From Micromonospora sp. NBC_01796 (GTDB lineage: Bacteria > Actinomycetota > Actinomycetes > Mycobacteriales > Micromonosporaceae): a DNA stretch of 64,000 nucleotides. Of the stretch, positions 1,311-22,929 are shown piece after piece. Below the pieces are notes generated by a model that was not told the DNA's origin, did no database searches, and was given only the letters and a program-made list of their open reading frames with translations. A program made the position numbers and the translations under genes. The stretch lies in the NCBI RefSeq assembly GCF_035917455.1, contig NZ_CP109078.1:6804001-6868000 (forward strand). Direction: 5' to 3'. Positions within the stretch are counted from its first letter, which is position 1, and every line of letters starts with the position of its first letter.

Positions 1311-1340
1311 ACACTAGTGCACGTAACATACAGTATACAA
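1311..1340 (-). promoter_or_regulatory. moeA promoter overlapped by GntR-type operator
   Basis: On the minus strand TTGTAT (1340-1335) and TAGTGT (1316-1311) are separated by 18 bp, a fair promoter for moeA. The palindrome ATAC-A-GTAT (1328-1336, extended CATACAGTATA 1327-1337) covers the -35 and the start of the spacer. On the plus strand TACAAT at 1336-1341 could be the -10 of the OFA carrier gene, so one operator may control both divergent genes. Confidence 0.55.
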
Positions 1341-1400
1341 TGGCCGACGACCGGGGGTTCCTGACGCGCGGCCGCACGGTGACAGGTGGAGGTGCCAGTG

Positions 1401-2771
1401 ATGCCGGACGCCAGGAACGCCGTTCCCACGCGGGAGGTACGCGACGTGTACGGGCGCCGCTACCGCGTCGGGGAGACCGACTTCGACCTGATGGGACGCT
1501 CACGCGCCTGGATGCTCCGGCTGTCCTGGGCCTCGATGCTGGCGATCAGCCTGTTCCAGTACGGCTTCGGCGCCGCGATCCCGGCCCTCGTCCGGGCCAA
1601 CGGGTGGACCCTGTGGGAGGCGTTCACCGTACTGGCGGTGTGGATCGTCTGCCAGGCGGGCACCGCGCTCCCGGCGGTCTGGCTCTACCGGCGGGTCCGG
1701 GTCCGGCTCGCCGTACCGATGCTGACCGGTGCGACCCTGGGCCTGGTCGCCCTCGTCACGCTCGGGCACAGCCGGGACCTGACCACGGTGCTGCTGGGCT
1801 ACTCGGTGCTCGGCGGGATCGGCACCGGGCTGGTCTACCTGACCTGCATCGCCACCGTCAGCGAATGGTTCCCCGAGCGGAGCGCGACCATGGTCGGCGT
1901 GGTCAGCGGAGCCTTCGGTTACGGGGCGATCCCGTTTGTCGTCGTCGCCGCGTACGCGCTGGGACCGGTGAACCTTCCGGTGGTCCTGGACACCACGGCG
2001 GTCGCCGTTTTTGCCGTGGTCGCGGTCAGCGGACTGCTGCTGCGCAAGCCGCCCCGGCACTGGTGGCCGGCGCACCTCGACCCGCAGCGGTGGGCGGTCG
2101 ACCGACGGCTCAACCGCAGCATCCCGAACAACATGCCCGCCATGCGTCCCTACTCGCCCCGGGCGGCGGTCCGCAGTGGGATGCTGCCGGTGATGTTCCT
2201 CCTCGTCGTGCTGACCGCCGCGATGGCCCTGTTCGACATCGCGTACCTGGTCGGGTTCGCCCACCACCGGGCAGACCAGCCGTTCCTGGTCGTCGCCTCG
2301 ATCGGCGTACTGGCCGCCGCCACCGGGGTCGGCCGGGCGGTCACCAGTTCGCTCTCCGACCGGCTGGGTCGCCGCCGTACGCTCGGGCTCGCCCTGGCGA
2401 TCGGGGGAGTGGCCCAGTTCGGCCTGCTCGCCGCCGTACAGGCGGAGCAGGTGGTGGCGGTGGTGGCGTTCGCCGGACTCGCCGGCGCGGGCACCGGCGC
2501 CGGATACTCTCTGCTGGTCAGCCTGGTACGCGACTGGTTCGGCGGCGAGGCGACCCTGCTGAACTACGGCATCGTCTACACCGGCAAGGTCGTCGGCGGG
2601 CTGGTGGGCATCGGGTTCGCCGGACTGGTGATCGGCACACCCGGCGCCATCGCGGCGTTTGTCGTGGCTGGCTGTCTGGGGCTGGTCGGCGCACTGTTGA
2701 CGAGCGGGATGCGGCAACCGGGCCGGCCGACGCTGTCGGTCCTGCCCCGACTGCGTCCCGACGAGTACTGA
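1401..2771 (+). CDS. MFS carrier of the oxalate/formate antiporter (OFA) type
   Basis: Predicted inner-membrane carrier of 456 residues with about 12 hydrophobic segments, most likely moving oxalate in, possibly in exchange for formate. MFS marks are the loop after TM2 and the central SDRLGRRRTLGLAL segment (about residue 315), equivalent to the loop 2/3 signature repeated in the second half. The start is ATG at 1401 because GGAGGT (1388-1393) sits 7 bases before it; the GTG at 1386 lies before that site. Downstream is fdhD, upstream divergent moeA, and a GntR-type palindrome lies about 65 bp upstream. The OFA assignment rests on overall resemblance and on the oxalate context, not on a tested substrate. 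Confidence 0.75.
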   Translation: MPDARNAVPTREVRDVYGRRYRVGETDFDLMGRSRAWMLRLSWASMLAISLFQYGFGAAIPALVRANGWTLWEAFTVLAVWIVCQAGTALPAVWLYRRVRVRLAVPMLTGATLGLVALVTLGHSRDLTTVLLGYSVLGGIGTGLVYLTCIATVSEWFPERSATMVGVVSGAFGYGAIPFVVVAAYALGPVNLPVVLDTTAVAVFAVVAVSGLLLRKPPRHWWPAHLDPQRWAVDRRLNRSIPNNMPAMRPYSPRAAVRSGMLPVMFLLVVLTAAMALFDIAYLVGFAHHRADQPFLVVASIGVLAAATGVGRAVTSSLSDRLGRRRTLGLALAIGGVAQFGLLAAVQAEQVVAVVAFAGLAGAGTGAGYSLLVSLVRDWFGGEATLLNYGIVYTGKVVGGLVGIGFAGLVIGTPGAIAAFVVAGCLGLVGALLTSGMRQPGRPTLSVLPRLRPDEY

Positions 2772-2832
2772 TCGGGCGGGCCGCCGTCGCGCCCCGCCGG
2801 AGTGGATACGAAGCGATGATGGGTGGTGGCAG

Positions 2833-3690
2833 ATGGGACGCGTGACAAGCCGACGTCGTGTGGTGCGGGTGGTCGACGGAACGGTCACCGAGCCGGTGGA
2901 CACGCTGGTGGCCGAGGAGCCGCTGGAGATCCGGGTCAACGGGCGGGCGCTCACCATCACCATGCGTACGCCGGGCGACGACTTCGACCTGGCCGCGGGG
3001 TTCCTGGTGAGCGAGGGCGTGGTGCAGCGCTCCGAGCACGTCGCCGGGATCCGCTACTGCGCCGGGGCGACCGACGACGGGGTCAACACGTACAACGTGG
3101 TCGACGTGGTGCTCGGCGCCGGGGTGCCGGCGCCGGACCCGTCCCTGGAGCGCAACTTCTACACCACGTCCTCGTGCGGGCTCTGCGGCAAGGCCAGCCT
3201 GGACGCCGTGCGTACCACCGCGGCCTGGTCGGTCGCGGAGGATCCGCTCCGCGTCACCCCGGAACTGGTCGCCGAACTGCCCGACCGGCTGCGCGCCGCG
3301 CAGCGGGTGTTCGACCGTACCGGCGGGTTGCACGCCGCCGGGCTGTTCGACACCGCCGGCCAGCTTCTCTGTCTGCGCGAGGACGTCGGCCGGCACAACG
3401 CCGTCGACAAGGTGGTGGGCTGGGCGTTGCGCTCCGGTCGGGTGCCGCTGCGCGGCACGCTGCTGCTGGTCAGCGGCCGGGCCTCGTTCGAACTGGTGCA
3501 GAAGGCGGTGATGGCCGGCGTACCGGCGCTCGCCGCGGTGTCGGCGCCGTCCTCGCTCGCGGTCGATCTCGCCGAGGACTCGGGCCTCACCCTGGTCGGT
3601 TTCCTGCGCGGTTCGTCGATGAACGTCTACACCGGCGCGCACCGGCTGGGGCTCGTCGACCGGGCGCCGGCCGCCGGCGCACTGTCCTGA
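2833..3690 (+). CDS. fdhD: formate dehydrogenase accessory sulfurtransferase FdhD
   Basis: 285 residues. FdhD transfers sulfur to the molybdenum cofactor before insertion into formate dehydrogenase. The catalytic CxxC is present as SSCGLCGKAS near residue 117. Other family segments are GDDFDLAAGFLVSEG (about 48-62), the LREDVGRHNAVDKVVG segment (about 183-198) and LVSGRASFELVQKAVMAG (about 213-230). It follows the OFA carrier by 61 bp on the same strand, so the two are probably co-transcribed, and a strong hairpin follows it. The only formate dehydrogenase in the window is the metal-free NAD enzyme at 24,031, which does not need FdhD; the client enzyme must be encoded elsewhere. Confidence 0.95.
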   Translation: MGRVTSRRRVVRVVDGTVTEPVDTLVAEEPLEIRVNGRALTITMRTPGDDFDLAAGFLVSEGVVQRSEHVAGIRYCAGATDDGVNTYNVVDVVLGAGVPAPDPSLERNFYTTSSCGLCGKASLDAVRTTAAWSVAEDPLRVTPELVAELPDRLRAAQRVFDRTGGLHAAGLFDTAGQLLCLREDVGRHNAVDKVVGWALRSGRVPLRGTLLLVSGRASFELVQKAVMAGVPALAAVSAPSSLAVDLAEDSGLTLVGFLRGSSMNVYTGAHRLGLVDRAPAAGALS

Positions 3691-3709
3691 CCACGGGTAC
3701 GACCACAGC

Positions 3710-3750
3710 CTCCCGTCCTCCCCCGCGCATCAACCGGGGGAGGACGGGAG
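3710..3750. terminator. bidirectional hairpin terminator between fdhD and sucD
   Basis: Perfect 16-bp inverted repeat (arms 3710-3725 and 3735-3750) with a 9-base loop, lying between the converging ends of fdhD and sucD. It is very GC-rich and can fold in both transcripts. Confidence 0.85.
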
Positions 3751-3758
3751 TTCGCGTC

Positions 3759-4655
3759 TTAGCGGGTGGCCATCCGGGACAGCAGCGTCTCGCGCATCAG
3801 CCGGGCGGTCTCCGACGGTGTCCTGCCCACCCGTACCCCGACCGCCTCCAGTGCCTCCTGCTTCGCCGCGGCGGTGCCGGACGAGCCGGAGACGATGGCG
3901 CCGGCGTGTCCCATGGTCTTGCCCTCCGGTGCGGTGAAGCCGGCCACGTAACCCACCACGGGCTTGGTGATGTGGGCCGCGATGTACTCCGCGGCCCGTT
4001 CCTCGGCGTCGCCGCCGATCTCCCCGATCATCACGATCGCGTCGGTCTCCGGGTCGTCCTGGAACGCCTGGAGGCAGTCGATGTGGGTGGTCCCGACGAT
4101 CGGGTCGCCGCCGATCCCGACGCAGGTGGAGAACCCGAAGTCGCGCAGCTCGTGCATGAGCTGGTAGGTCAGCGTGCCACTCTTGCTGACCAGTCCGATC
4201 CGCCCCCGTTCGGTGATGTCGGGCGGGATGATGCCGGCGTTGGACTGTCCCGGGCTGATCAGGCCGGGACAGTTCGGGCCGATGATCCGGGTCCGGTTGC
4301 CGGCCGCGCACGCGTACGCCCAGAACGTGGCGGTGTCGTGCACCGGGATGCCCTCGGTGAGCACGACGACCAGGGCCAGTTCGGCGTCGATCGCCTCGAT
4401 CACCGCGGCCTTGGCGAACCGGGGCGGGACGAAGACGACCGAGGTGTCGGCCCCGGTGGCCGCGACCGCCTCGGCGGTGCTGTTGAAGACCGGAATCCCG
4501 TCGACCTGCTGGCCGCCCTTGCCCGGGGTGACCCCGGCGACGATGTTGGTGCCGGCGGCGACCATCCGCCGGGTGTGCTTCGTGCCCTCGGTGCCGGTGA
4601 TGCCCTGGACCAGTACGCGGCTGGATTCGGTCAGGAAGATTGCCATCGCTGTCAT
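3759..4655 (-). CDS. sucD: succinate-CoA ligase alpha subunit SucD
   Basis: 298 residues. Alpha subunit of ADP/GDP-forming succinyl-CoA synthetase, carrying the CoA-binding Rossmann domain and the phosphohistidine. Visible motifs are [16 protein letters not shown] near residue 16, [12 protein letters not shown] near 124, and the active-site histidine in [12 protein letters not shown] near 248. Its ATG overlaps the sucC stop as ATGA, so translation is coupled. The pair sits back-to-back with frc instead of in a TCA operon. I infer a role in supplying succinyl-CoA as a CoA donor for oxalate, or recovering it; it may equally be the housekeeping copy or act on another dicarboxylate. Confidence 0.93.
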
Positions 4656-5830
4656 GCCCCCTTGGTGGCGAGTTGGGCGGCGAGGCGAGCCGCACCGTCC
4701 ATCGTGTCCACGGTCCGTACGCAGTCGAGTGCGGCGGCGGTGAGGATCCGTCGACCCTCCTCGGCGTTGTTGCCGTCCAGGCGCACCACCAGCGGCTTGG
4801 TGATCTGCGCACCGTCGCGGGTGAGCAGCTCGATCGCCTGCAGGATGCCGTTGGCCACCGCGTCGCAGGCGGTGATGCCGCCGAAGACGTTGACGAAGAC
4901 GCTGCGCACCGCCGGGTCGCCGAGGATGATCTCCAGTCCGTTCGCCATCACCTCGGCCGAGGCGCCACCGCCGATGTCGAGGAAGTTGGCCGGCTTCACC
5001 CCGCCGAACTCCTCGCCGGCGTACGCGACCACGTCGAGGGTGCTCATCACCAGGCCGGCGCCGTTGCCGATGACCCCGACCTCGCCGTCGAGCTTGACGT
5101 AGTTGAGGTGCTTCTCGGCCGCCAGTGCCTCCAGCGGGTCGGCCGCGGCGGTGTCGACGAACTCCGCGTGCCCGGGGTGGCGGAAGCGGGCGTTGTCGTC
5201 CACGGTGACCTTGCCGTCGAGGGCGCGTACGGACCCGTCGGCCAGCTTCGCCAGCGGATTGATCTCCACCAGGGTCGCGTCCTCCGCCTGGAACACCGTC
5301 CAGAGCCGGACCAGCACGTCCCGTACGCCGTCGTGCACGTCGGACGGCAGGTTGGCGTCGACGCAGAGTCGGGTGGCGGTCTCGGCGGTGACCCCCTCGG
5401 CGGGGTCGATCGGCAGCCGGATCAACGCGTCCGGGTTCTCCACCGCCACCTGCTCGATCTCCATCCCGCCCTCGCGGGACACCATGGCGAGAAACGATCG
5501 GTTGGACCGGTCGAGCAGCAGCGAGACGTAGTACTCGTCGGCGATGTCGCTGGCCTCGGTGACCAGCACCCGGCCGACGGTGTGTCCCTTGATGTCCATG
5601 CCGAGGATCGCGCTCGCCGTGTCGTACGCCGAGTCCGGGCCGTCGGCCAGCTTGACCCCGCCGGCCTTGCCCCTGCCCCCGGTTTTCACCTGGGCCTTCA
5701 CCACGACCCGGCCGCCGATCTCGGCGGCGGCCTCGCGGGCCTGTTCGGCGGTGTCGGCCACGCGGTACCTACCCACAGGTACGCCGTGTTTGGCGAACAG
5801 ATCCTGTGCCTGGTGCTCCAACAGATCCAC
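4652..5830 (-). CDS. sucC: succinate-CoA ligase beta subunit SucC
   Basis: 392 residues, normal length. N-terminal ATP-grasp domain ([12 protein letters not shown] onward; [20 protein letters not shown] near 46) and a C-terminal ligase domain with [12 protein letters not shown] and [13 protein letters not shown]. The start is GTG at 5830 with a GGAGAGGGAGG ribosome site about 6 bases upstream. It is first gene of a sucC-sucD operon divergent from frc. A minus-strand promoter (TTGCAT, 18 bp, TATCGT) lies inside the 67-bp repeat about 110 bp upstream, overlapped by the GntR-type palindrome, so this copy is probably induced with the oxalate genes. Confidence 0.93.
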
Positions 5831-5909: not shown

Positions 5910-5976
5910 GCTACCCCCTAGACACCCCGCTGTTACATGCGCCACGATATTGCCTACCCCATACGGTATGCAATCC
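5910..5976. repeat. 67-bp duplicated promoter/operator block, copy 1 (sucC/frc intergenic)
   Basis: Bases 5910-5976 match 13887-13953 with one mismatch (5940 C versus A). The block contains the palindrome CCATACGGTATGC (5959-5971). On the minus strand it contains a good promoter for sucCD: TTGCAT at 5973-5968 and TATCGT at 5949-5944, spacer 18. On the plus strand TACGGT (5962-5967) could serve as the frc -10, but no convincing -35 precedes it, which suggests help from an activator. Both copies point the same way relative to a downstream plus-strand CoA-pathway gene. Confidence 0.9.
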
Positions 5977-6094: not shown

Positions 6095-7324
6095 ATGGGT
6101 AAGGCACTGGAGGGCATCCGCGTCCTCGACATGACACACGTGCAGTCCGGTCCCTCGTCCACACAGATCCTGGCGTGGCTGGGCGCCGACGTCATCAAGC
6201 TGGAGGCACCGGGAACGGGTGACATCACCCGCGCCCAGCTGCGCGACCTGCCCGGTGTGGACAGCCTCTACTTCACGATGCTCAACGCCAACAAGCGGAG
6301 CATCACGCTGAACATGAAGAGCGAGCAGGGCAAGGAGATCTTCACCTCGCTGGTGTCCGGCGTGGACATCCTGGTGGAAAACTTCGGGCCCGGTGTGGTG
6401 GAGCGCTTCGGCTTTCCCTGGGAACGGCTGCAGGAAATCAACCCCGGCCTGGTCTACGCCTCGATCAAGGGCTTCGGACCGGGCCGCTACGCCAACTTCA
6501 AGGCGTACGAGGTGATCGCCCAGGCGATGGCCGGCTCGATGAGCACCACCGGCTTCGAGGGTGGCCCGCCGACCGCCACCGGCGCCCAGATCGGCGACTC
6601 CGGCACCGGCATCCACCTGGTCGCCGGCATCCTCGCCGCGCTCTACCAGCGCACCAACACCGGCCGGGGTCAGCGGGTCCAGGTCGCCATGCAGGACGCG
6701 GTGCTCAACCTGTGCCGGGTGAAGCTGCGCGACCAGCAGCGGCTGGCGCACGGACCGCTGGGGGAGTACCCCAACGAGAACTTCGGCGACGAGGTGCCGC
6801 GTTCGGGGAACGCCTCCGGCGGCGGACAACCCGGCTGGGCCGTGCGCTGCGCACCGGGCGGACCGAACGACTACATCTATGTGATCATCCAGCCGGTCGG
6901 CTGGAAGCCGATCACGGAACTGATCGGCAAGCCGGAGCTGGCCGACGACCCGGCCTGGAACACCCCGGCGGTACGGCTCGCCAAACTCGACAAGGCCTTC
7001 GCGCTGATCGAGGAGTGGACCGAGAAGCACACCAAGTGGGAGGTCATGGAGAAGCTCAACGCCCACAACATCCCGTGCGGGCCGATCCTGTCGACCAAGG
7101 AACTGATCGAGGACACCACCCTGGCCGAGCTCGGCTCGGTGGTCGAGGTCGAGCACCCCGAGCGGGGTGCCTACAAGACCGTCGGCAACCCGATCAAGCT
7201 GTCCGACTCGACCGTCGAGATCGAGCGGTCCCCGCTGCTCGGTGAGCACACCGTGCAGGTCCTCGGCGAGCTCGGTTACGACGAGAGCCAGGTCGCCGAA
7301 CTGCGTACCGCCGGTGTGATCTGA
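6095..7324 (+). CDS. frc: formyl-CoA:oxalate CoA-transferase
   Basis: 409 residues, class III CoA-transferase. It moves CoA from formyl-CoA (or succinyl-CoA) to oxalate, giving oxalyl-CoA. It resembles Oxalobacter FRC along its whole length: [10 protein letters not shown] at 11-20, VDSLYFTM near 55, VENFGPG near 94, catalytic Asp168 in [17 protein letters not shown] near 198, and the glycine loop SGGGQPGW. Two active-site differences from the Oxalobacter enzyme are visible: Gln48 where FRC has Trp48, and Ser for the first Gly of the mobile loop. The start is ATG at 6095 with AGGAGG at 6082-6087. The 67-bp promoter block lies about 120 bp upstream. It heads the run frc, acyl-CoA synthetase, Nramp-like, membrane protein, terC. 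Confidence 0.94.
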
Positions 7325-7391
7325 CCATCCCGCTGTTCACAGGCGTCCGCCGCGACCGGCGGTGCGTTCGGTCCGAAGGAGAGACGAGGAA

Positions 7392-9560
7392 ATGTCAGAT
7401 AACGCAACCAGCTACGACCGCGAGGCGGTACGCCGGGTTCTCGACCAGGTCCGGGCCGAGGGCCGCGACTCGCTGACCGCGCCCGAGGGTCGGCTGGTCG
7501 TCGAGGCGTACGGCATCGCGACGCCCCGGGAGGGGCTGGCCGAAAGCGCCGACGAGGCGGTGACCCTGGCCGGGCAGATCGGCCTCCCGGTGGTGCTGAA
7601 GATCGTCTCGCCGGACATCCTGCACAAGACCGAGGCCGGCGGCGTCCTGGTCGGGCTGAAGACGCCGGCCGAGGTCGCCGACGGCTTCCGGACCATCGTG
7701 GACAACGCCAAGGCGTACCGGGCCGACGCCCGGATCGTCGGGGTGCAGGTGCAGCAACTGCTCACCTCCGGCCACGAGGTGATCGTCGGCACGGTGACCG
7801 ACAAGACCTTCGGCAAGGTGGTCGCGTTCGGGCTCGGCGGCGTGCTGGTCGAGGTGCTCAAGGACGTGACCTTCCGGCTCGCCCCGGCCGACCACGAGAC
7901 CGCGCTGTCGATGATCGACGGGATCGCCGCGGCCGAGATCCTGCGCGGCGTACGCGGCGCCGAGCCGGCCAACCGCGAGGTCCTGGCCGGGCTCATCCAG
8001 CGGCTGTCCGACCTGGTCACCGACTTCCCCGAGCTGGCCGAGGTCGACCTCAACCCGGTCCTGGCGACCGCCTCCGGCGCGACCGCGGTCGACGTGCGGA
8101 TCCTGGTCGACGACGAGGCCGCGAAGACGCCGGAACGGTTCTCCGAGGAGGAGATCCTGGCCAGCATGAACCGGATCATGCGGCCCGCGGCGGTCGCCGT
8201 GATCGGTGCCTCCGCCGAAACCGGCAAGATCGGCAACTCGGTGATGAAGAACCTGGTGAACGGCGGCTACCAGGGCGAGATCTACCCGATCAACCCTAAG
8301 GCCGACGAGATCCTGGACCGCAAGGCGTTCAAGAGCATCGCCGACGTACCCGGCCCGGTGGACGTCGCGGTCTTCGCCATCCCGGCGAAGTTCGTCCCGC
8401 AGGCACTCGAGGAGGTCGGCGCCAAGGGTGTCGCCGGGGCGATCCTGATCCCGTCCGGCTTCGGCGAGACCGGCAACCACGAGCTGCAGGACGAGGTCGT
8501 GGCCATCGCCCGCCGGCACGGCGTACGCATCCTCGGGCCGAACATCTACGGGTACTACTACACCCCGGAGAACCTCTCCGCGACCTTCTGCACGCCGTAC
8601 GACGTCAAGGGTGGCGTCGCCCTCTCCTCGCAGAGCGGCGGGATCGGCATGGCGATCCTCGGCTTCAGCCGGTCCGCGAAGATGGGCGTCTCCTCGATCG
8701 TCGGCGTAGGGAACAAGGCCGACATCGACGAGGACGACCTGCTGACCTTCTTCGAGACCGACCCCAACACCCAGTTGATCGCGATGCACCTGGAGGACCT
8801 CAAGGACGGCCGGGCCTTCGCCGAGACCGCCAAGCGGGTGTCGAAGACCAAGCCGGTGCTGGTTCTCAAGGCCGGCCGGACCGACCAGGGTGCCAAGGCC
8901 GCCAGCTCGCACACCGGCGCACTCGCCGGCAACGACAAGGTGTACGACGACATCCTGCGGCAGAGCGGCGTGATCCGCGCCCCCGGCCTCAACGACCTGC
9001 TCGAGTACGCCCGCGGCATCCCGCTCCTGCCGACCCCGCAGGGCGAGAACGTCGTCATCATCACCGGCGCGGGCGGTTCCGGCGTACTGCTCTCCGACGC
9101 GTGCGTCGACAACAGCCTGCGTTTGATGGAGATCCCCCCGGATCTCGACGAGGCGTTCCGCAAGTTCATCCCGCCCTTCGGCGCGGCCGGCAACCCGGTG
9201 GACATCACCGGCGGCGAACCGCCGTCGACCTACCGGAACACCATCGCGCTCGGCCTGTCCGACCCCCGGATCCACTCGCTGATCCTCGGTTACTGGCACA
9301 CCATCGTCACCCCGCCGATGGTCTTCGCCGAACTGGTGGTCGACGTGGTCGAGGAGTTCCGGGCCAAGGGCATCCACAAGCCCGTCGTCGCCTCGCTCGC
9401 CGGCGACGTGGAGGTCGAGCAGGCAAGCGAGCACCTGTACCGGCACGGGATCGTGGCCTACCCGTACACCACGGAGAAGCCGGTCGCCGTACTCGGTGCG
9501 AAGTACCGCTGGGCCCGGGCCGCAGGCCTCGTCGGGGCCGACCCGAGCACCGGCGGCTGA
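7392..9560 (+). CDS. fused ADP-forming acyl-CoA synthetase (acetate-CoA ligase type)
   Basis: 722 residues. NDP-forming acyl-CoA synthetase in beta-alpha order: an ATP-grasp half (about 1-240; VVLKIVSPDILHKTEAGGV near 75), then a CoA-binding half (PAAVAVIGASAETGKIGNSV near 273) and ligase domains. The phosphohistidine candidate is in the SSHTGALAG segment near residue 512. Such enzymes interconvert acyl-CoA plus ADP and phosphate with acid, CoA and ATP. The start is ATG at 7392 after GAGACGAGGAA. It follows frc by 67 bp. By context it could recover ATP from formyl-CoA, or activate oxalate or another small acid; the sequence does not settle the substrate. Confidence 0.85.
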   Translation: MSDNATSYDREAVRRVLDQVRAEGRDSLTAPEGRLVVEAYGIATPREGLAESADEAVTLAGQIGLPVVLKIVSPDILHKTEAGGVLVGLKTPAEVADGFRTIVDNAKAYRADARIVGVQVQQLLTSGHEVIVGTVTDKTFGKVVAFGLGGVLVEVLKDVTFRLAPADHETALSMIDGIAAAEILRGVRGAEPANREVLAGLIQRLSDLVTDFPELAEVDLNPVLATASGATAVDVRILVDDEAAKTPERFSEEEILASMNRIMRPAAVAVIGASAETGKIGNSVMKNLVNGGYQGEIYPINPKADEILDRKAFKSIADVPGPVDVAVFAIPAKFVPQALEEVGAKGVAGAILIPSGFGETGNHELQDEVVAIARRHGVRILGPNIYGYYYTPENLSATFCTPYDVKGGVALSSQSGGIGMAILGFSRSAKMGVSSIVGVGNKADIDEDDLLTFFETDPNTQLIAMHLEDLKDGRAFAETAKRVSKTKPVLVLKAGRTDQGAKAASSHTGALAGNDKVYDDILRQSGVIRAPGLNDLLEYARGIPLLPTPQGENVVIITGAGGSGVLLSDACVDNSLRLMEIPPDLDEAFRKFIPPFGAAGNPVDITGGEPPSTYRNTIALGLSDPRIHSLILGYWHTIVTPPMVFAELVVDVVEEFRAKGIHKPVVASLAGDVEVEQASEHLYRHGIVAYPYTTEKPVAVLGAKYRWARAAGLVGADPSTGG

Positions 9561-11244: not shown

Positions 11245-11245
11245 G

Positions 11246-13072: not shown

Positions 13073-13557
13073 GACCTCTTCACCTCGTCGGTTATAGGCG
13101 TTCCCGTGGGACGACGCCCCGCGGGAGGGTGCGTACCGGCTGCGCGTCCAGGGCTGGGTGCCGCGTTGCTCCCAGCGGGACGGGCGCGTCTGCTCGATGT
13201 GGTCGCCGAGGGTCCGAGCTGGCAGGCTCGGGCCCTCCGGCGTCCCGGTGATGGCCGGGGTGTGCCGCCCGGTACCGGATTCGGCCCGGCGGCTGGTTGC
13301 GGTCACCTCGGAGGTGGGGGCTCCCAGGTGCGGTCCGGGGCGCGACGCGCCGGACCGGGGTCGGCCCGTCCTCGGCGCTGATTCACCGGTGCGGGCCGTC
13401 CATGGTGGTGCGGGGGTTCGAGGACGGTGCGTGGTCGTCGGTTGGTACGGCTCCCCGTGTCGGTGCCGGGTGTTGGTGTCCCGGCCCGTCGTGGGGGAGA
13501 GGATTCCGTTCACCGCAGACCTGCTTCGTTGGCTCGATTCCCGTGGGCCTGGCTCCA
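13073..13557 (-). other. long untranslated leader or unassigned stretch upstream of the 68-aa gene
   Basis: About 485 bp between a candidate promoter and the 68-residue gene. Open frames exist on both strands but encode low-complexity Arg/Pro/Gly text with no start plus ribosome site. It could be a structured leader, an RNA gene or a decayed gene; nothing firmer can be said. Confidence 0.4.
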
Positions 13558-13598
13558 GCATACAGGCTTTTGTATGCAAAGTTTGATCCAGTGACCAA
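13558..13598 (-). promoter_or_regulatory. promoter with paired GntR-type half-sites facing the 68-aa gene
   Basis: GCATACA (13558-13564) and TGTATGC (13571-13577) form a perfect 7-bp inverted repeat with a 6-base spacer. On the minus strand TTGGTC (13598-13593) and TACAAA (13574-13569) are 18 bp apart, so the half-sites flank the -10. The flank GATCCAGTG (13585-13593) also recurs next to the aldehyde dehydrogenase operator. From 13599 to 13886 I see no gene. Confidence 0.55.
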
Positions 13599-13886: not shown

Positions 13887-13953
13887 GCTACCCCCTAGAC
13901 ACCCCGCTGTTACATGAGCCACGATATTGCCTACCCCATACGGTATGCAATCC
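13887..13953. repeat. 67-bp duplicated promoter/operator block, copy 2 (upstream of the ThDP gene)
   Basis: Second copy of the block at 5910-5976, differing at one base (13917). It contains palindrome CCATACGGTATGC at 13936-13948. The minus-strand TTGCAT/TATCGT promoter is also conserved and would read toward the 68-aa gene. Similarity fades right after the palindrome. Confidence 0.9.
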
Positions 13954-16181: not shown

Positions 16182-16937
16182 TCAGGCCAGAGCCTCCCGC
16201 TCAGCGGCCTCCTTGCGCCGCTTGTGGTAGCTCTCCCGGGTCCGTTCGGTGTGCCGGCGCATCATGTCGCCCGCGCGCTTGCCGTTGCGGCTGGCGATGA
16301 CCTCGATCAGGGCCGCGTGCTCGTCCCAGGCCTCCCGGCCGCGTGACCGCGCGATCGGCAGGTAGTACCAGCGCACCCGGCGGTCCACCAGCGCGATCAG
16401 CTCGGCCAGCACGTTGTTGCCCGACATCGACACCACGTACGCGTGCAGGGCGGCGTTCGCGGCGACCATGCCCTCCTGGTCGTCGTCGCTGAGCGCCTTC
16501 TCACCGGCGCGCTGCAGGCCCCAGAGATGCTCGATGTGCTCCGGGGTGGCCCCACGCGCGGCCAACCGGGCAGACTCGGTCTCGAGCAGCGTACGGGCGG
16601 CCAGGAGCTGGTCCGCCTCGGCCTCGGTCGGCACGTGGACGAACGCGCCGAGAGCGGGGCGCAGGTCGACCCAGCCCTCGCTGTGCAGCCGTTGCAGCGC
16701 CTCGCGTACCGGTTGCCGGCTCACTCCGAGCTGGGCGGCCAGCTCGTTCTCGACCAGGTGCTCACCCGGTTGCAGCTCCCGGTTGATGATCATCTCGGCG
16801 ATCACGTCGTAGACCGCCTGGCGCAGGGGTGCGGGACGCTCCAACGGCTGGCGTACGGCCCGAGCCTCGGCTCGTGCGGCGGCGAGCCGTCGTCCACCGC
16901 TGGCGGCGGCTGGCGGGCTCGAGTCCCAGTCCGTCAT
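16182..16937 (-). CDS. GntR-family regulator with FCD ligand domain (candidate oxalate-regulon repressor)
   Basis: 251 residues. A 30-residue charged N-terminal tail is followed by a winged helix (about 35-105; LAAQLGVSRQPVREAL is the recognition region) and an all-helical FCD effector domain (about 110-235) with the usual polar and His residues (NAALHAYVV, DEHAALIEVI, RRHTERT). FCD proteins bind small carboxylates, and the ligand releases the operator. It lies tail-to-tail with the ThDP gene. Its own promoter carries the 13-bp site, implying autoregulation. Seven such sites within 22 kb make it the obvious regulator of the island; oxalate, oxalyl-CoA or glyoxylate are guesses for the ligand. 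Confidence 0.9.
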   Translation of the reverse strand: MTDWDSSPPAAASGGRRLAAARAEARAVRQPLERPAPLRQAVYDVIAEMIINRELQPGEHLVENELAAQLGVSRQPVREALQRLHSEGWVDLRPALGAFVHVPTEAEADQLLAARTLLETESARLAARGATPEHIEHLWGLQRAGEKALSDDDQEGMVAANAALHAYVVSMSGNNVLAELIALVDRRVRWYYLPIARSRGREAWDEHAALIEVIASRNGKRAGDMMRRHTERTRESYHKRRKEAAEREALA

Positions 16938-16988: not shown

Positions 16989-17016
16989 TTCATAGCATAC
17001 AGTCGCCGAGATGCAA
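16989..17016 (-). promoter_or_regulatory. gntR promoter with one-armed operator in the spacer
   Basis: On the minus strand TTGCAT (17016-17011), 16 bp, TATGAA (16994-16989). The sequence GCATACAGTCGCC at 16995-17007 fills the spacer: one perfect arm and one degenerate arm. From 17017 to 17101 nothing else is seen. Confidence 0.55.
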
Positions 17017-17272: not shown

Positions 17273-18997
17273 TCAGTCGGCGCTCGCCTGCGCCGGCACG
17301 CTCTCGGGCACCGGCTCGTACTCGTTGACCTTTGCGATGGAGAGGCCGTGTGCGGTGTTCGCCTCACGTTCGACCATCACCTCGACCAGCACCGGTCGGC
17401 TGGTCCGCCTGGCCTCCTTGCTGGCCCAGGCGAGCGCGTCGCCGATCTCGCCCGGCTCGGTGACCCGGCGACCGGAGCAGCCGTACGCTTCCATGATCTT
17501 GACGTTGTCGGTGCCGTACTCGTCGTAGTGGATGTCCACCTCGAAGTTCATGCCGTAGCCGATCTCGGCCTGCCGGATCAGGCCGAGATACTCGTTGTTG
17601 AGCATCACCAGCACGAACGGCACGTTGTACTGGGCGGCGACGGCGAGCTCCTCGACCAGGAACTGGAACGAGTAGTCGCCCACCACGCCGACCACCTCGG
17701 CGTCGGGTCTGGCCGACTTGACCCCGATCGCGGCCGGGATCTCCCAACCGAGCGGCCCGGCCTGGCCGCAGACCTGGTAGTGCCGGGGCTTGAAGACGTT
17801 CTGGAACTGCCCGGACCAGATCTGGTAGAGCCCGATCGCGGTGACGAAGTACGTCTCCGGACCGAAGAACTCGTTGATCTCCCGGAAGACCCGGGGTGCC
17901 TTGATCGGCACCGAGTCGAAGTCGTCCCGACGGGTCAGTGTCCGGCGCAGCGTACGCACCCGCGACACCCACTGCCCACGGTCGACCTCGGCGCCGCGGC
18001 GCCGGACCGCGTCGAGCAGTGCCGCCAGGAACGCGCCGGTGTCCGACACGACACCGAGGTCCGGGCCGAACACCTTGCCGATCTGGGTGGGCTCGATGTC
18101 GACGTGGATGAACTTCCGGTCGCCCCGGTAGGTCTCCAGGTCACCGGTGTGCCGGTCACCGAACCGGGCGCCGAGCGCGAGCACCAGGTCGGACTCCAGG
18201 AAGGACGCGTTGCCGTAGCGCTGCGTGGTCTGGATCCCGGTCATCCCGGCGAACAGGTCGTGGTCCTCCGGCAGCGAACCCTTGCCCATCAGGGTGACCT
18301 GGACCGGGATGTTCAGCGTCTCGGCGACCTCGCGCAACAGGTCGGTGGCCTCGCCGAGGATGACCCCGCCACCGGCCAGGATGAGCGGGCGCTCGGCGGC
18401 CAGCAGCAGGTCCAGGGCGCGTTCCACCCGTGGCGGGTGCGGTTCGACCCGGGTGACCGGCAGCGGGGCGTCGATGGTGGCGTCCCACTCGATCTCCTGG
18501 CGTTGCACGTCCAACGGCAGGTCGATCAGGACCGGGCCGGGGCGCCCGGACCGGGCGATCCGGAACGCCTCCCGGAAGATCCAGGGTGCCTGCGCGGCCT
18601 CCTTCACCTGCACCGCCCACTTGGTCACCGGCTTGGCGATCTCGACGATGTCCACCGCCTGGAACGCCTCCTGGTGCAGCTTCGTGGTGGGCGCCTGCCC
18701 GGTGATGCAGATCATCGGGATGGAGTCCGCCTGCGCGGTGTAGAGCCCCGTGATCATGTTGGTCCCGGCCGGGCCGGAGGTGCCGATGGCGACACCGACC
18801 CGCCCGTTGGTACGGGCCCAGCCGTCCGCCATGTGGGTGGCGCCCTCCTCGTGCCGGACGATGAGGTGCCTGATGTCGCTGTTCTTCAACGCGGCGTACA
18901 GCGGCAGGATGGCGGCGCCGGGACAGCCGAACGCGATGTCCACGCCCTCCGATCTGAGCACGGTGACCACCGCTTCCATGCAGGGGATCTTGGCCAT
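17273..18997 (-). CDS. gcl: glyoxylate carboligase (tartronate-semialdehyde synthase)
   Basis: 574 residues. ThDP enzyme joining two glyoxylates into tartronate semialdehyde with loss of CO2. It follows E. coli Gcl closely: FGCPGAAILPLY near 23, GTSGPAGTNMITGLY, ADSIPMICITGQAP, FQAVDIVEIAKPV, HVDIEPTQIGKVF, CGQAGPLGWEIPAAIGV, and GDYSFQFLVEELAV as the Mg-ThDP site. Position 50 is Glu (RHEEGATHMADG), whereas E. coli Gcl has its hallmark Val51 there, so the canonical ThDP glutamate is present. The start is ATG at 18997 with GAGAGG 10 bases upstream; the ATG at 19006 is too close to that site. It is downstream of hyi (59 bp) in one operon. Confidence 0.88.
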   Translation of the reverse strand: MAKIPCMEAVVTVLRSEGVDIAFGCPGAAILPLYAALKNSDIRHLIVRHEEGATHMADGWARTNGRVGVAIGTSGPAGTNMITGLYTAQADSIPMICITGQAPTTKLHQEAFQAVDIVEIAKPVTKWAVQVKEAAQAPWIFREAFRIARSGRPGPVLIDLPLDVQRQEIEWDATIDAPLPVTRVEPHPPRVERALDLLLAAERPLILAGGGVILGEATDLLREVAETLNIPVQVTLMGKGSLPEDHDLFAGMTGIQTTQRYGNASFLESDLVLALGARFGDRHTGDLETYRGDRKFIHVDIEPTQIGKVFGPDLGVVSDTGAFLAALLDAVRRRGAEVDRGQWVSRVRTLRRTLTRRDDFDSVPIKAPRVFREINEFFGPETYFVTAIGLYQIWSGQFQNVFKPRHYQVCGQAGPLGWEIPAAIGVKSARPDAEVVGVVGDYSFQFLVEELAVAAQYNVPFVLVMLNNEYLGLIRQAEIGYGMNFEVDIHYDEYGTDNVKIMEAYGCSGRRVTEPGEIGDALAWASKEARRTSRPVLVEVMVEREANTAHGLSIAKVNEYEPVPESVPAQASAD

Positions 18998-19056
18998 AGT
19001 TTCCATACCTCTCGAATGGGCGGGGGAGACGCTCGGCTGTGGACGGACGGTGGCGG

Positions 19057-19893
19057 TCAGAGCCGGGCCGACGAACGGCGTTCCCGGGGAAGCCACCCGA
19101 AGCTGTCCGCGCTCGGCCCGAGCGGCTTGTACTCACAGCCCACGTAGCCGCGGTAGCCGGCCCGTTCGAGCTGGGCGAGCAACCCGTCGAGGTCGAGCTC
19201 ACCGGTGCCGGGCTGGTTGCGTCCCGGCGCGTCGGCGATCTGTACGTGACCGATGTGGCCGGTGTGGGTGGTGATCACCTTTTCCAGGTCCTCACCGTTG
19301 CTGGCCAGGTGGTACAGATCGCAGAGCAGCCGTACGTTGTGCTGCCCGGAGCCGACCCGTACCCGGTCGATCACCGCGCGCACGTCGGTGGCGGTGGCCA
19401 GCGGGTAGGCCGGGTTCTGCGCGCTGTTCAGCGGTTCGAGCAGCACGATCGCGCCGGCACCGGCGGCTGCCTCGGCGGCCAGCGCCAGGTTCTCCGCCGC
19501 CAGGTCGTCCTGCTCGGCCGGATCGACCCCGTCGACCCGGTTGCCGTACAGCGCGTTCAGGGCCCGGCAGCCGGTCGCCTCGGCGATCCCGACCGCCGAG
19601 GCGATGTTGGCCCGGAACCGGGCCGAGTTCGCCGGCTGGGAAAGCAGACCGCGGTCGCCGGCGGGCATGTCACCGGCGTCGAAGTTCAGCCCGACGAGCC
19701 GTACCCCGGCGTGGTCGAGCGCGTTGAGGAAGGCCGTGACGTCGCGGTCGGCCGGGACCGGCTCGGCGAACGGCCACCAGAACTCGACCGCGTCGAAACC
19801 GGCCGCGGCGGCCGCCGCCGGCCGTTGGAGCAGCGGAAGTTCGGTGAACAGGATGGAGAGGTTCACGTCGAACCGGAGGTCGTGTGCCGTCAT
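19057..19893 (-). CDS. hyi: hydroxypyruvate isomerase family protein
   Basis: 278 residues, TIM-barrel sugar-isomerase fold (AP endonuclease 2 superfamily). Interconverts hydroxypyruvate and tartronate semialdehyde. Marks are FDVNLSILFTELPLLQR at the N-terminus, GFDAVEFWWPF near 32, VLLEPLN with the metal-ligand Glu near 150, LLCDLYHLASNGED near 189, and HVQIADAPGRNQPGTGELD near 217. First gene of a hyi-gcl operon. No tartronate-semialdehyde reductase or glycerate kinase is in the window, so the product presumably flows to a hydroxypyruvate reductase elsewhere. No GntR-type site was seen directly upstream. Confidence 0.87.
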   Translation of the reverse strand: MTAHDLRFDVNLSILFTELPLLQRPAAAAAAGFDAVEFWWPFAEPVPADRDVTAFLNALDHAGVRLVGLNFDAGDMPAGDRGLLSQPANSARFRANIASAVGIAEATGCRALNALYGNRVDGVDPAEQDDLAAENLALAAEAAAGAGAIVLLEPLNSAQNPAYPLATATDVRAVIDRVRVGSGQHNVRLLCDLYHLASNGEDLEKVITTHTGHIGHVQIADAPGRNQPGTGELDLDGLLAQLERAGYRGYVGCEYKPLGPSADSFGWLPRERRSSARL

Positions 19894-20001: not shown

Positions 20002-21543
20002 TCACACCGCCGGATACCGGGCGTGCGAGGGGAAGTTGCCATACAACCGCTCGTCGGCGGGTCCCTCGGTGACCGCGTGGACGAGCAGCGCGCCGCCGAC
20101 GAAGGCGCCCCGCCAGGACGCGCCCTTGCCGCCGAAGACCTCCTGCCGGTCCCCGCGCGAACGGGGCCGGTTGACGCCGACCTTGAACGCCTGGAGTTCG
20201 GCGCCGAGCCGGTACGCGGTCGCCTCGTCGTCACAGGCGATCGAGGCGACCAGCGCCCCGTTGCTGGCGTTCATCGCGGCCAGCAGTTCCGCCTCGGTGT
20301 CGACCAGCACGATGGTGTCGACCGGCCCGAACGGCTCGGCGTGGAACAGCGGCGAGGACGGCGGTGGGGCCAGGATCGCCGTCGGCGGGAGGTACGCCGA
20401 GGTGTCCTGACCCGGCAGGAAGCTCCCGCTGTCCAACGAGCCCCGGTAGATCGGTACGCCGCCCTTGTCGATCGCCTCGTTCACCGCGTCGTTGAGCTCC
20501 TTGACCTTGGCGTCCTTGATCAGCGGGCCGAAGTCGAGCTCGGGGAAGTCCTCCTGACCGGGCTCGATCGCCAGCGGGTGCCCGAACCGCACCCCCCGCA
20601 CCGCGGGCAGGTACGCGTTGAGGAACCTGTCGAACAGCGACCGCTGCACCACGTACCGGGGGTAGGCGGTGCAGCGCTGCTTGGCGTACTCGAAGGACTT
20701 GCGGACGTTGGCGGTGAGCAGGTCCCAGTCGGTGAACTCCCACACCCCCCAGCAGTTGAGTCCCTCCTGTTCGAGGACGTGCCGCTTGTCCGAGTCGACC
20801 AGTCCGGCGGCCACCTGGCCACCGACGTCGCGACCGCCGACGAAGAAGACGCAGCCGATCTCCGGCGCGGCGACCAGGACCGAGGAGAGTTCCGCGCCGC
20901 CGCCGCTGATCAGGGTGAACGGCAGTCCGTGCCGGGCGGCGATGGCCACGGCCAGGGTCAGGCAGCTCACCCCGCCGTCGGAGGGTGCCTTGGCGATCAC
21001 CGCGTTTCCGGCGAGCGCCTGGACCAGCATCGCGTGCACGATGACGCTCATCGGGTAGTTCCAGCTCGCGATGTTGCTGATCGGCCCGGCCAACGGGGTC
21101 CGCCCGTCGAGCATGTCGTCGATCTCGTCGACGTACCAGCGGACCCCCTCGATGCACCGGTCGACGTCGGCCCGGGCCAGCCGCCAGGGCTTGCCGATCT
21201 CCCAGACCAGGAGCAGGGCGAGCAGGTCACGGTGCTCCGCCAGAGCGTCCAGGGTGGTGCCGACCCGCGCCTTGCGTTCGGCCAGCGGCAGGGCGGACCA
21301 GGTTCGGTGGGTGTCGAGTGAGGCCCGGACCGCGGCGGTCGCGGTTTCCCCGGTGACCCGGGGCGGGCCGGCGATGGGCGTCCCGTCCACGGGGGAGGTG
21401 GCCAGGGCGGGCACACCGTCGGGTTGCCACCGGCCATCCCAGTAGTTGCAGAGGCGGCCGTCGAGGAACGCCTCGGGCGCCACCGTCCGGCAGCGGGCAT
21501 AGACGTCTGGCCAGGCGGTGCCAGGCTTGAGGATCAGGGGCAC
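20002..21543 (-). CDS. aldehyde dehydrogenase family protein in the oxalate regulon
   Basis: 513 residues, ALDH superfamily. Cofactor-site motif ISNIASWNYP (about 155-163), FFVGGRDVGG (about 233-242) in place of the usual FTGS, Glu260 in LEQEGLNCWG and the likely catalytic Cys291 in AKQRCTAYP. The surroundings of the Cys and the missing FTGS mark an uncommon subfamily. It has its own promoter with the best GntR-type palindrome of the window and a terminator after it, so it is a single-gene unit. Candidate reactions are CoA-acylating interconversion of oxalyl-CoA and glyoxylate, oxidation of formyl or glyoxylyl groups, or oxidation of a semialdehyde; the sequence does not decide. Confidence 0.82.
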   Translation of the reverse strand: MPLILKPGTAWPDVYARCRTVAPEAFLDGRLCNYWDGRWQPDGVPALATSPVDGTPIAGPPRVTGETATAAVRASLDTHRTWSALPLAERKARVGTTLDALAEHRDLLALLLVWEIGKPWRLARADVDRCIEGVRWYVDEIDDMLDGRTPLAGPISNIASWNYPMSVIVHAMLVQALAGNAVIAKAPSDGGVSCLTLAVAIAARHGLPFTLISGGGAELSSVLVAAPEIGCVFFVGGRDVGGQVAAGLVDSDKRHVLEQEGLNCWGVWEFTDWDLLTANVRKSFEYAKQRCTAYPRYVVQRSLFDRFLNAYLPAVRGVRFGHPLAIEPGQEDFPELDFGPLIKDAKVKELNDAVNEAIDKGGVPIYRGSLDSGSFLPGQDTSAYLPPTAILAPPPSSPLFHAEPFGPVDTIVLVDTEAELLAAMNASNGALVASIACDDEATAYRLGAELQAFKVGVNRPRSRGDRQEVFGGKGASWRGAFVGGALLVHAVTEGPADERLYGNFPSHARYPAV

Positions 21544-21863
21544 GGGAGCCTCCAGGGCGTCGGGTGTCCTGCGAAGGTGCTGGCGGGCCGGGTCGCGTCA
21601 GGCGTCTGGTACGCCGAGGACGCCGGCGTCGCGCCGCTGGCTGGCCGGCACCGGATCCCGGTGTGCACGGCTGGAGCCAATCGGCGTACTGCATACAGTA
21701 TGCTGTTCGTGGATCCAGTGCAAGCTTCCCGTGCCGGACAACAGCTTCTGGCGTGCGGTTTTGTACCCGTCCCGGTGGCGGATCGACCGCACCGGTCCAT
21801 GTGGAGCGATGATGCGGGGTTCGCCGGGGGCGAGGCCGGGTCCCGCGACAGGCGGCCGGTGGA
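21544..21863. other. 320-bp intergenic region holding the aldehyde dehydrogenase control region
   Basis: No gene is seen. The only clear structure is the palindrome and promoter at 21691-21723; the 148 bp between it and the start codon would be an untranslated leader. Confidence 0.5.
21691..21723 (-). promoter_or_regulatory. aldehyde dehydrogenase promoter with perfect GntR-type operator
   Basis: GCATACAGTATGC at 21691-21703 is a perfect 13-bp palindrome about one central base. On the minus strand TTGCAC (21723-21718), 17 bp, TACTGT (21700-21695) places the -10 inside the palindrome, a classic repressor layout. Confidence 0.7.
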
Positions 21864-22859
21864 TCAGGCCGCGGTGGGTACCGCCGCCCGCCGGGCCACG
21901 GACCGGGCCAGCAGATCGGTGGCGGCGTACACGGTACGGAGGGTGGGTGCCGGGGCACTGGTGATGTCGGCCATCTCCACCACCGCCGCGACGATGGCGT
22001 CCAGTTCCAGTTCCTTGCCCGCCTCCAGGTCCTGCAACATGGAGGTCTTGTGGTGGCCGACCCGCTGCGCACCGTCGATCCGCTTGGCGATGGAGATCTC
22101 CGGATTGCTGCCCACCCGGGCGGCGATGTCCAGCGTCTCCTCCATCATCTGCGCGACCACCTGACGGGTGCCGGGGTTCTCGCAGATCTCGATCATCGTG
22201 GCCCGGGTCAGGGCGCTGATCGGGTTCAGTGAGACGTTGCCCATCAACTTGATCCAGATGTCGTCCCGCAGCCGGGGTTCGACCGGGCACTTCAGGCCAC
22301 CGGCGATCATCGCGGCGCTGAACTCCGTACAGCGTCGCGAGATGGTGCCGTCCGGTTCCCCGATCGAGAACCGGGTGCCCTCCAGGTGGCGGATCACCCC
22401 GGGTGACTCGATCACGGTGGCCGGATAGACCACGCAGCCGATCGCCCGCTCCGGTTCCATCACCGCCGAGGTCTGGCCGTCCGGATCCACCGCCTGGATG
22501 CGCTGGTTCTCGTACGGCCCGTCGAGCTTGTGGAAGTACCACCACGGGATGCCGTTCTGGGCCGCGATGAGCGCGGTCTGCGGCCCGAGCAGGGGAGCGA
22601 GCAGCGGCCCCGCCGAGGCGTAGGAGTGTGCCTTGAGCCCCAGGAACACGTAGTCCACCGGGCCGACCGCGGCGGGATCGTCGGTGGCGTGCGGATGTGC
22701 CGAGAAGTCCCCTCGGGGACTGAGGATCCGGACTCCGTTCTGTTGCAGGGCGGCCAGGTGCGCACCGCGGGCGATCAGGTGAACGTCCACTCCGGCGCGG
22801 CAGAGGGCCGCGCCAACGTAGGCGCCGATGGCGCCTGCTCCGAGCACTGCGACTCGCAC
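21864..22859 (-). CDS. PanE-family reductase, candidate oxalyl-CoA reductase
   Basis: 331 residues. N-terminal Rossmann domain (MRVAVLGAGAIGAYVGAAL) and C-terminal ketopantoate-reductase helical domain (WIKLMGNVSLNPISALTR near 221 with the catalytic Lys; MLQDLEAGKELELDAIV near 276). It carries AQNGIPWWYF near 102, typical of a PanE-like subgroup. In Methylobacterium extorquens a PanE-family protein (PanE2) was identified as the oxalyl-CoA reductase that makes glyoxylate, so the same role is plausible here beside frc, gcl and hyi. The start is GTG at 22859 after AGGGAG; the GTG at 22883 lies before that site. Its promoter region carries two GntR-type sites. Confidence 0.78.
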   Translation of the reverse strand: MRVAVLGAGAIGAYVGAALCRAGVDVHLIARGAHLAALQQNGVRILSPRGDFSAHPHATDDPAAVGPVDYVFLGLKAHSYASAGPLLAPLLGPQTALIAAQNGIPWWYFHKLDGPYENQRIQAVDPDGQTSAVMEPERAIGCVVYPATVIESPGVIRHLEGTRFSIGEPDGTISRRCTEFSAAMIAGGLKCPVEPRLRDDIWIKLMGNVSLNPISALTRATMIEICENPGTRQVVAQMMEETLDIAARVGSNPEISIAKRIDGAQRVGHHKTSMLQDLEAGKELELDAIVAAVVEMADITSAPAPTLRTVYAATDLLARSVARRAAVPTAA

Positions 22860-22893
22860 GGGCTGCTCCCTTCGAGCGCACACAAAAAGACCA

Positions 22894-22929
22894 GGCTTCT
22901 GTATGCGTTATGGGGAGTACAGTATGCAA
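22894..22929 (-). promoter_or_regulatory. panE-like promoter with two GntR-type sites
   Basis: On the minus strand TTGCAT (22929-22924), 18 bp, CATACA (22905-22900). Site 1, 22894-22906, and site 2, 22915-22927 (GAGTACAGTATGC), each have one perfect GTATGC arm and one degenerate arm, and they cover the -10 and the -35. Confidence 0.55.

Follow-up and report, generated by a model that had tools for sequence, protein, structure and literature searches.

Oxalate is a major product of plants and fungi and is consumed by soil actinobacteria. We analyzed a 64,000-nt stretch of DNA from Micromonospora sp. NBC_01796 (the window; positions 6804001-6868000 of a single 8,562,983-base contig) that holds a cluster of genes predicted to serve oxalate use, among them frc, oxc, sucCD, gcl, a carrier gene and gntR, which encodes an FCD-type GntR regulator. 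Hexamer boxes, GCATAC or GTATGC, recur between these genes and are best described, from their sequences, as set on a 7-bp register, with adjacent boxes giving pairs with a 1-bp spacer (N1) and every other box giving pairs with an 8-bp spacer (N8). We put the probability at about 0.77 that the boxes are operators of the FCD-GntR protein encoded at 16182-16937, which would repress the cluster until an acid of the pathway releases it. An earlier note on this DNA had proposed an oxalate regulon under this regulator, and comparative evidence supports it: the motif tracks gntR across genomes of the family, and matrix matches in the genome fall in the cluster only. What we computed is where the sites lie, that they are confined to the cluster, how they are conserved and how they are coupled to gntR and frc. 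The motif points to a regulator and its targets across several actinobacterial families, and a rare DNA signature common to many relatives makes the control of oxalate use directly testable.

Candidate operators in the window and the genome

The earlier note had read the sites as a 13-bp operator, GCATAC-N-GTATGC. Those sites are real and all lie where it placed them; boxes on a 7-bp register, paired as N1 or N8, model them better. Mismatches to GCATACNGTATGC number two at 1326, one each at 5959 and 13936, three at 16995 and none at 21691, and on the side of the panE-like gene three at 22894 and two at 22915. Two of these seven sites (16995 and 22894) are individually at chance level as 13-bp words. 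The paired half-sites reported at 13558-13577 are present and, re-read as an N8 pair (13556-13580, 27.1 bits), outscore every other site. Allowing up to three mismatches, GCATACNGTATGC has 27 matches in the window against 12.0 expected, a number attained in 0 of 100 shuffles. Thirteen of the 27 sit past 29 kb, each with three mismatches, so the statement that the remaining 41 kb held no such palindrome stands at two mismatches or fewer and fails at three.

Across the 8.56-Mb genome, SCATACNGTATGS occurs exactly three times, always inside the window; the chance expectation for GCATACNGTATGC is 0.16 (GC content assumed to be 71%). With one mismatch allowed, the real and the reversed pattern each occur nine times, so one-mismatch matches outside the cluster carry no meaning. 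TTGCATACNGTATGCAA with up to three mismatches has six genome sites, four of them in the window (1326..1338 is among the six), and its reversed control has five in the genome. We therefore relied on two sequence-only matrices built without window data. The N1 model used all 54 unique exact sites from other genomes, a selection by exact core that makes it strict; the N8 model used 36 of 60 unique sequences from other genomes, the 24 rows left out being composite, oxc/frc-type, panE-type or near-duplicate. Scoring 150 of 306 and 150 of 288 first-look candidates, the N1 matrix found five places at an E-value (E) of at most 10, which are four sites, one of them read on both strands, and all in the cluster; the N8 matrix found a single place, also in the cluster (E 3.9e-5). 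Among the candidates scored, this confinement excludes an even spread over the genome, which the earlier note had named as refuting its proposal, and speaks against a chance origin of the sites. An unfiltered scan of the window with both models together recovered every site named in that note, some at E near or above 1, and one further weak place at 60921.

Along the window, the first N1 boxes (1326..1338, plus strand, two mismatches) lie upstream of the OFA-type carrier gene and are weak (window E 0.86). Between sucC and frc stands a composite, TTGCCTAC-CC-CATAC-G-GTATGCAA (5950..5973, plus strand, genome E 0.0027), in which an N1 core (5959-5971) is joined by a degenerate third box 7 bp upstream; a copy of this composite operator candidate (13927..13950, plus strand) lies upstream of oxc, the gene of a thiamine diphosphate (ThDP) enzyme. 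Both copies lie inside a 67-bp repeat with one difference (5910-5976 at the frc promoter, 13887-13953 at the oxc promoter), so the sites at 5959 and 13936 are not independent; the segments read as a duplicated or gene-converted promoter. The N8 candidate TTGCATAC-N8-GTATGCT (13557..13579, minus strand, genome E 3.9e-5) lies upstream of a 68-aa open reading frame (ORF) and matches a consensus taken from gntR promoters of other genera. Upstream of gntR itself is a degenerate N8 candidate, TTGCATCTCGGCGACTGTATGCT (16994..17016, minus strand), which is weak alone (window E 1.3) and similar in Micromonosporaceae relatives. The composite GCGTAC-T-GCATAC-A-GTATGC (21684..21703, unstranded, genome E 0.019), which includes the perfect N1 at 21691-21703, precedes the aldh-hyi-gcl row. 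Upstream of the panE-like gene are a weak half operator, GTATGC (22894..22906, minus strand, window E 0.46), placed at 22892-22906 by the N8 model, and an N1 candidate with two mismatches (22915..22927, plus strand, genome E 7.9, window E 0.058).

A further box triple, CCATAC-T-GCATAC-A-GAATCC, lies 2.4 kb left of the window at genome positions 6801632-6801651 (L251:17133-17152), 70-90 bp before glxR, which encodes a tartronate semialdehyde reductase (TIGR01505, 387.3 against a cut-off of 340.75); this step comes directly after gcl in the pathway. The 20 kb left of the window contain ten matches at up to three mismatches, of which three make up the glxR triple and include the sole one with two mismatches. 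Among glxR regions compared (matches of at least 55% identity reaching the query start), the site is kept in two congeners whose glxR is 93 and 91% identical. A pyruvate-kinase-like frame follows glxR, its match beginning only at profile position ~168.

Conservation and the 7-bp register in relatives

Our first set comprises 80 gntR loci in named genomes, with 56 to 85% identity. They come from Micromonosporaceae, from Mycobacterium, Lentzea and their relatives, and from Amycolatopsis, Streptomyces and others, the closest genes being from Micromonospora, Plantactinospora and Actinoplanes relatives; related genomes are non-independent samples. Within these stretches gntR is accompanied by frc (62 loci), panE (58), the ligase (56), oxc (53), sucC (50) and the carrier (45). 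When all palindromes with 5-base arms and spacers 0-12 were enumerated, CATAC-N1-GTATG was the most over-represented (91 sites in 66 of the 80 loci, 0.1 expected), and CATAC-N8-GTATG ranked second by ratio (34 sites, 28 loci). Another enriched palindrome, AACTT-N10-AAGTT, was set aside: across the 27 loci listed its distance from panE is similar, and its position looks coding. N1 sites are placed upstream of oxc, frc, the carrier/fdhD side and panE. N8 sites lie mostly upstream of gntR and, in Lentzea, between gntR and terC, where the Micromonosporaceae have the 68-aa ORF and the Lentzea loci gave no match to it. Within 330 bp before gntR, 64 of the 80 loci carry N1 or N8 (at most two mismatches). 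Locus L054 of Lentzea has a site directly ahead of the stretch that matches a formate dehydrogenase alpha gene. Some loci contain two gntR homologues (L152, L071, L070, L077, L089, L020, L048).

A second set comprised 40 gntR loci chosen regardless of the motif from 39 other gntR-bearing genomes of the class sample described below, one of them repeating a locus of the first set. With at most two mismatches in 12, these loci hold 74 pairs at spacer 1 and 47 at spacer 8, against 2 to 15 at the remaining spacers. We also counted box-to-box distances, allowing one mismatch and taking each distinct stretch a single time. Forward-reverse pairs have maxima at 7 and 14, with 95 and 78 pairs in the first set and 73 and 42 in the class set, compared with 7 and 13 pairs for the reversed control in both sets. 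Same-orientation pairs also peak at 7 (36 and 47; 37 and 47; reversed control 24 and 19, both sets together). The first set shows off-register rises as well, at forward-reverse 11 (28) and reverse-forward 9 (32; control 10 and 15), for which we have no explanation beyond lineage-specific copies and word overlaps. Upstream of gntR, spacers 1, 8 and 15 stand out (40, 84 and 17); in the spacer controls of the two sets, the reversed pattern has its maximum at spacer 6 (23 and 28 counts), since it contains the same CATAC...GTATG arms as N8 sites.

N8 is typical before gntR, and N1 and composites before catabolic genes. The consensus at the oxc and frc promoters is TGCCTACC-n-CATACGGTATGCAATC, in which TGCCTAC is the third, degenerate box 7 bp ahead of CATAC and forms an N8 pair with GTATGCA; the class loci also include triples such as GCATAC-T-GTATAC-A-GTATG. 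The consensus TTGCATACNAAANNCTGTATNCT, from gntR promoters of other genera, is fitted by 13557-13579 and is present in two of 394 class genomes, the second occurrence lying 93 bp before the gntR match (G355). A different word with the same 7-bp step, GTAGACTGTAGAC, stands upstream of gntR in nine loci of genus g70, probably Streptomyces (L175, L177, L178, L186, L190, L191, L194, L196, L200).

A tentative extension, to which we give somewhat less than even odds, is that the clade reads a modular array: hexamers in either orientation every 7 bp, whose pattern of filled and empty positions (adjacent, skip-one or triple) would set how tightly a promoter is held. Skip-one (N8) patterns would then distinguish gntR and, within this genus, the 68-aa ORF from the catabolic genes, which would carry adjacent or triple patterns. 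Since a 7-bp step puts neighbouring box centres on different helix faces, such an array would require several dimers wrapped round the DNA, or DNA-binding domains able to span two distances.

Coupling to gntR and frc across genomes

Among 150 Micromonosporaceae genomes (gntR called at E <=1e-60), exact TTGCATACNGTATG occurs in 16 and gntR in 15; 13 genomes have both, three the motif only and two gntR only (Fisher 3e-14, uncorrected for relatedness), and the reversed control pattern occurs in one. The 13 genomes have 21 sites in all, at most 16.6 kb from gntR and, for 20 of the sites, at most 13 kb. frc is present in 14 of the 150 genomes, every one with gntR; no genome has frc only, and one has gntR only. 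Of the two gntR-only genomes of the motif comparison (G021 and G024), G024 contains a near-exact site ahead of oxc, and a second gntR there is preceded by a triple.

The three motif-only genomes belong to one genus, and frc was not found in them. Each carries a single site, followed 40-50 bp later by the matching stretch of an FCD-gntR that is 38-40% identical to the query. That motif-only genomes without frc still carry the motif before an FCD-gntR counts for GntR as the reader of the boxes. Such a paralogue with a TTGCATACCGTATGCA site at that distance is seen in L150 and L151 (genus g12); around L150 we found genes for an ABC transporter and a substrate-binding protein, with no oxalate gene found nearby. 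These two loci are perhaps a sister regulon using the same operator.

A looser search of the 150 genomes with TGCATAC-N0-20-GTATGC was too noisy to use: it matched 88, many of them, among the matches listed, through interspersed repeats like TGCATACCGGTGTTGTATGC and through N2 matches. Several Micromonosporaceae genomes (G040, G062, G012, G085 and others) carry an interspersed repeat, TGCATACCGGTG(T/C)(T/C)GTATGC, and near forms of it.

The class sample comprised 394 genomes (gntR called at E <=1e-50), 40 of them gntR-bearing; 30 of the 39 used for the second set have frc. We took stretches upstream of frc from 20 of the 30; oxc is present in 19 of these, each of which has an N1 (at most two mismatches in 12) no further than 200 bp from the oxc match. 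N1/N8 matches in the frc loci themselves (12 of 30; reversed control 3) were set aside, as they apparently lie within or beside coding sequence. Eight of the 19 oxc stretches come from genus g70 (probably Streptomyces) and have words like TTCATACAGTATTCG; the gntR stretches of those eight genomes hold no N1/N8 in five cases and one N8 in three.

Regulator, mechanism and alternatives

The GntR protein (16182-16937) scores 71.3 bits for Pfam GntR and 82.0 bits for FCD, both above the gathering score, and is the single match in the genome at E<=1e-60. Its structure model (mean predicted local distance difference test (pLDDT) score 84.7) consists of a winged helix-turn-helix (wHTH) and an all-helical C-terminal domain, preceded by a disordered N-terminal stretch; this extension of 38 residues has pLDDT under 50 for residues 1-25, and its sequence is not conserved. 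The recognition region SRQPVREALQRL is nearly invariant across loci, and H165, H207 and H229 are invariant in 26 GntR sequences; by analogy to HypR/TM0439, these histidines may be the FCD metal ligands. Among the best fold matches of the model are PmiR, Brucella GntR 7u5q, Atu1419/VanR and TM0439 (E 1.5e-10 to 6e-9), which have the same fold with 26-30% identity over the aligned part and presumably serve other pathways. Identity with NanR (NF003011, 86.4 bits against a cut-off of 260) or with PhnR of Burkholderia (TIGR03338 equivalog, 104 bits against 271.5) was rejected.

From these data we infer binding by this protein, repression, an effector and cooperative binding. GntR dimers would bind the hexamer boxes (GCATAC / GTATGC) on a 7-bp register at target promoters: the OFA carrier for import; frc with the acyl-CoA ligase, sucCD and oxc for activation and decarboxylation; aldh-hyi-gcl, the panE-like gene and, outside the window, glxR for glyoxylate assimilation; and, further, the 68-aa ORF and gntR itself. 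Bound GntR would cover the promoter or start region and keep the genes off until a pathway acid (oxalate or glyoxylate, by our guess) binds the FCD domain and releases it. In many relatives, TGGACA followed after a 17-20 base gap by TAACAA, TAGCAA or TCCAAT precedes the boxes (by eye), and the boxes therefore cover the probable start region.

Several results weigh against operators read by this protein. Sixteen of the 80 named loci lack N1/N8 in the 330 bp before gntR, and 12 of the 40 class loci lack them within their stretch. Exact TTGCATACNGTATG occurs in 5 of the 394 class genomes, three of them without gntR (G196, G262, G401), and only 2 of the 40 gntR-bearing genomes have it; the exact word is thus a poor marker outside the family. 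Nine of 11 printed gntR promoter regions of g70 carry the other repeat GTAGACTGTAGAC (by eye). In the motif-only genomes the longest open frame of gntR includes the site, and the start codon was assumed to lie after it. Where a locus has two gntR paralogues, N1 and N8 could each serve a different protein. Only one genus shows the glxR site, in 3 of 38 glxR upstream regions; the 35 others, of which four are family loci with glxR beside hyi, lack it.

The best-surviving alternative, which we consider unlikely, is that GntR is an activator or acts with dual sign, bound beside RNA polymerase without blocking it. FCD regulators can activate (CitO is an example), and site positions vary in the window, where the distance from the -35-like TAGACA to CATAC is 35 bp at frc and oxc and 13 bp at OFA; in many relatives, however, the boxes lie directly downstream of -10-like sequences (by eye), the usual place of a repressor. 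Less probable still, at around one chance in ten, would be another regulator of the cluster that binds the boxes, with gntR a mere passenger of the oxalate island. The frc-gntR linkage is nearly perfect, so any gene of the cluster would co-occur with the motif, and in one Streptomyces locus (L070) a site lies directly before the matched part of a LysR-type gene beside formate dehydrogenase genes. Two observations speak against a passenger. In the three frc-less genomes the motif directly precedes the stretch matching an FCD-gntR paralogue, and no oxalate gene was found in the vicinity; and in many lineages N8 sites lie upstream of gntR itself (N1/N8 in 64/80 loci). That the boxes are conserved core-promoter elements (sigma-factor sites) is very improbable: TACNGT fits TANNNT and TTGCAT resembles a -35 box, but the arms are palindromic, the spacings are fixed at two values, the sites are restricted to one cluster in 8.56 Mb, and relatives have separate -35/-10-like sequences upstream of the boxes (by eye).

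Comparison with known systems

Operators of the FadR subfamily, FCD regulators, have the consensus TKGT-ACMA, in which 2-3 nt separate GT from AC, and in 13 FadR groups further, weaker half-sites lie 7-12 nt away from the centre (Suvorova et al. 2015, PMC4494728). The system described here resembles that subfamily in protein architecture, in palindromic sites near the regulator and its targets, and in extra half-sites. The half-site polarity is the opposite, AC-N-GT here against GT before AC there (PMC4494728), which also counts against operators read by this protein and contradicts the earlier note, where FCD-GntR proteins were said usually to bind short palindromes of this form. The palindromes enriched here do not fit GT-N2 to N3-AC: they are CATAC-N1-GTATG and CATAC-N8-GTATG, with a central GTATAC in some composites only. 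Unlike in FadR-subfamily sites (PMC4494728), the extra box keeps a constant 7-bp step, and the middle box is missing from many N8 sites. A 7-bp register with inverted polarity would, if true, be an unusual DNA reading for an FCD protein. The words oxalate and glyoxylate are absent from the main text of PMC4494728.

Escherichia coli NanR (PMC8012715) is alike in being an FCD GntR with closely spaced GTAT-containing boxes and an N-terminal extension before the wHTH; its boxes are direct repeats, (GGTATA)3, whereas the outer boxes here are inverted. NanR-like cooperative binding of several dimers would have its DNA counterpart here in the 7-bp register of boxes, seen in two locus sets. Streptomyces HypR (PMC6608401) is likewise an actinobacterial FCD GntR, an autoregulated repressor of a local catabolic regulon with metal-binding histidines, but differs in its operator, CTNTGC(A/C)ATGTCAC, and its substrate, L-hydroxyproline. 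Open-licence PMC literature, mostly titles and the beginnings of abstracts, yielded no named transcriptional regulator of the frc/oxc pathway.

Genes of the cluster

The frame at 1-1171, called moeA in the earlier note, was seen here as an open frame only. It is followed on the plus strand by an MFS carrier of OFA type (1386..2771; Pfam MFS_1) that misses both oxalate/formate antiporter models (TIGR00890, 117.5 bits against 374.85; TIGR04259, 85.2 against 335) and is thus an OFA-like MFS protein with oxalate as putative substrate, and by fdhD, for a formate dehydrogenase accessory protein (2833..3690, plus strand; Pfam FdhD-NarQ). With a Streptomyces FdhA-like protein as query, neither the window nor the 20 kb before it gave a formate dehydrogenase alpha gene. 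sucD (3759-4655) and sucC (4652-5830) lie on the minus strand (3759..5830; Pfam). On the plus strand come frc, formyl-CoA:oxalate CoA-transferase (6095..7324; TIGR03253, 654.6 bits, over the cut-off of 504.2), an ADP-forming acyl-CoA ligase gene (acdAB-like, 7362..9560; Pfam), and a row encoding an NRAMP-type transporter, a 192-aa ORF and a TerC-like membrane protein (9706..12858). The NRAMP/TerC row, the 68-aa ORF and glxR are new candidate genes of the pathway.

The 68-aa ORF (12866..13069, minus strand) is conserved, has no Pfam match and is preceded by its own N8 candidate, the best of the genome. Of the 80 gntR loci, 5 contain it (near terC, in Micromonosporaceae), as do congeners, and no relatives were found in the viral contigs searched; possibly it is an accessory protein of the pathway.

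oxc (14259..15986, plus strand) encodes a ThDP enzyme of the oxalyl-CoA decarboxylase / 2-hydroxyacyl-CoA lyase group. Its product scores 227.1 bits against the oxalyl-CoA decarboxylase model TIGR03254, where 739.4 are needed, and reaches no family cut-off among the matches listed (25 of 51 families); the nearest solved chains are 2-hydroxyacyl-CoA lyases, followed by oxalyl-CoA decarboxylases. oxc adjoins frc in relatives, including most of the 30 class frc loci. Neither oxc nor the OFA carrier reaches its curated cut-off; both names rest on neighbourhood and nearest solved relatives.

Beyond gntR (16182..16937, minus strand; Pfam GntR and FCD), the proposed reader of the boxes, the minus strand carries gcl, glyoxylate carboligase (17273..19003; TIGR01504, 715.7 bits, over the cut-off of 711.2), a hyi-like gene of the hydroxypyruvate isomerase family (19057..19893; TIGR03234, 294 bits, missing the cut-off of 353), an aldehyde dehydrogenase family gene (20002..21543; Pfam Aldedh), and the panE-like gene of a PanE/ApbA-family reductase (21864..22859; profile matches). 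The last may, by analogy, encode an oxalyl-CoA reductase; we take Methylobacterium panE2 to be such an enzyme, acting ahead of glyoxylate formation, which would explain a panE-like gene in the regulon.

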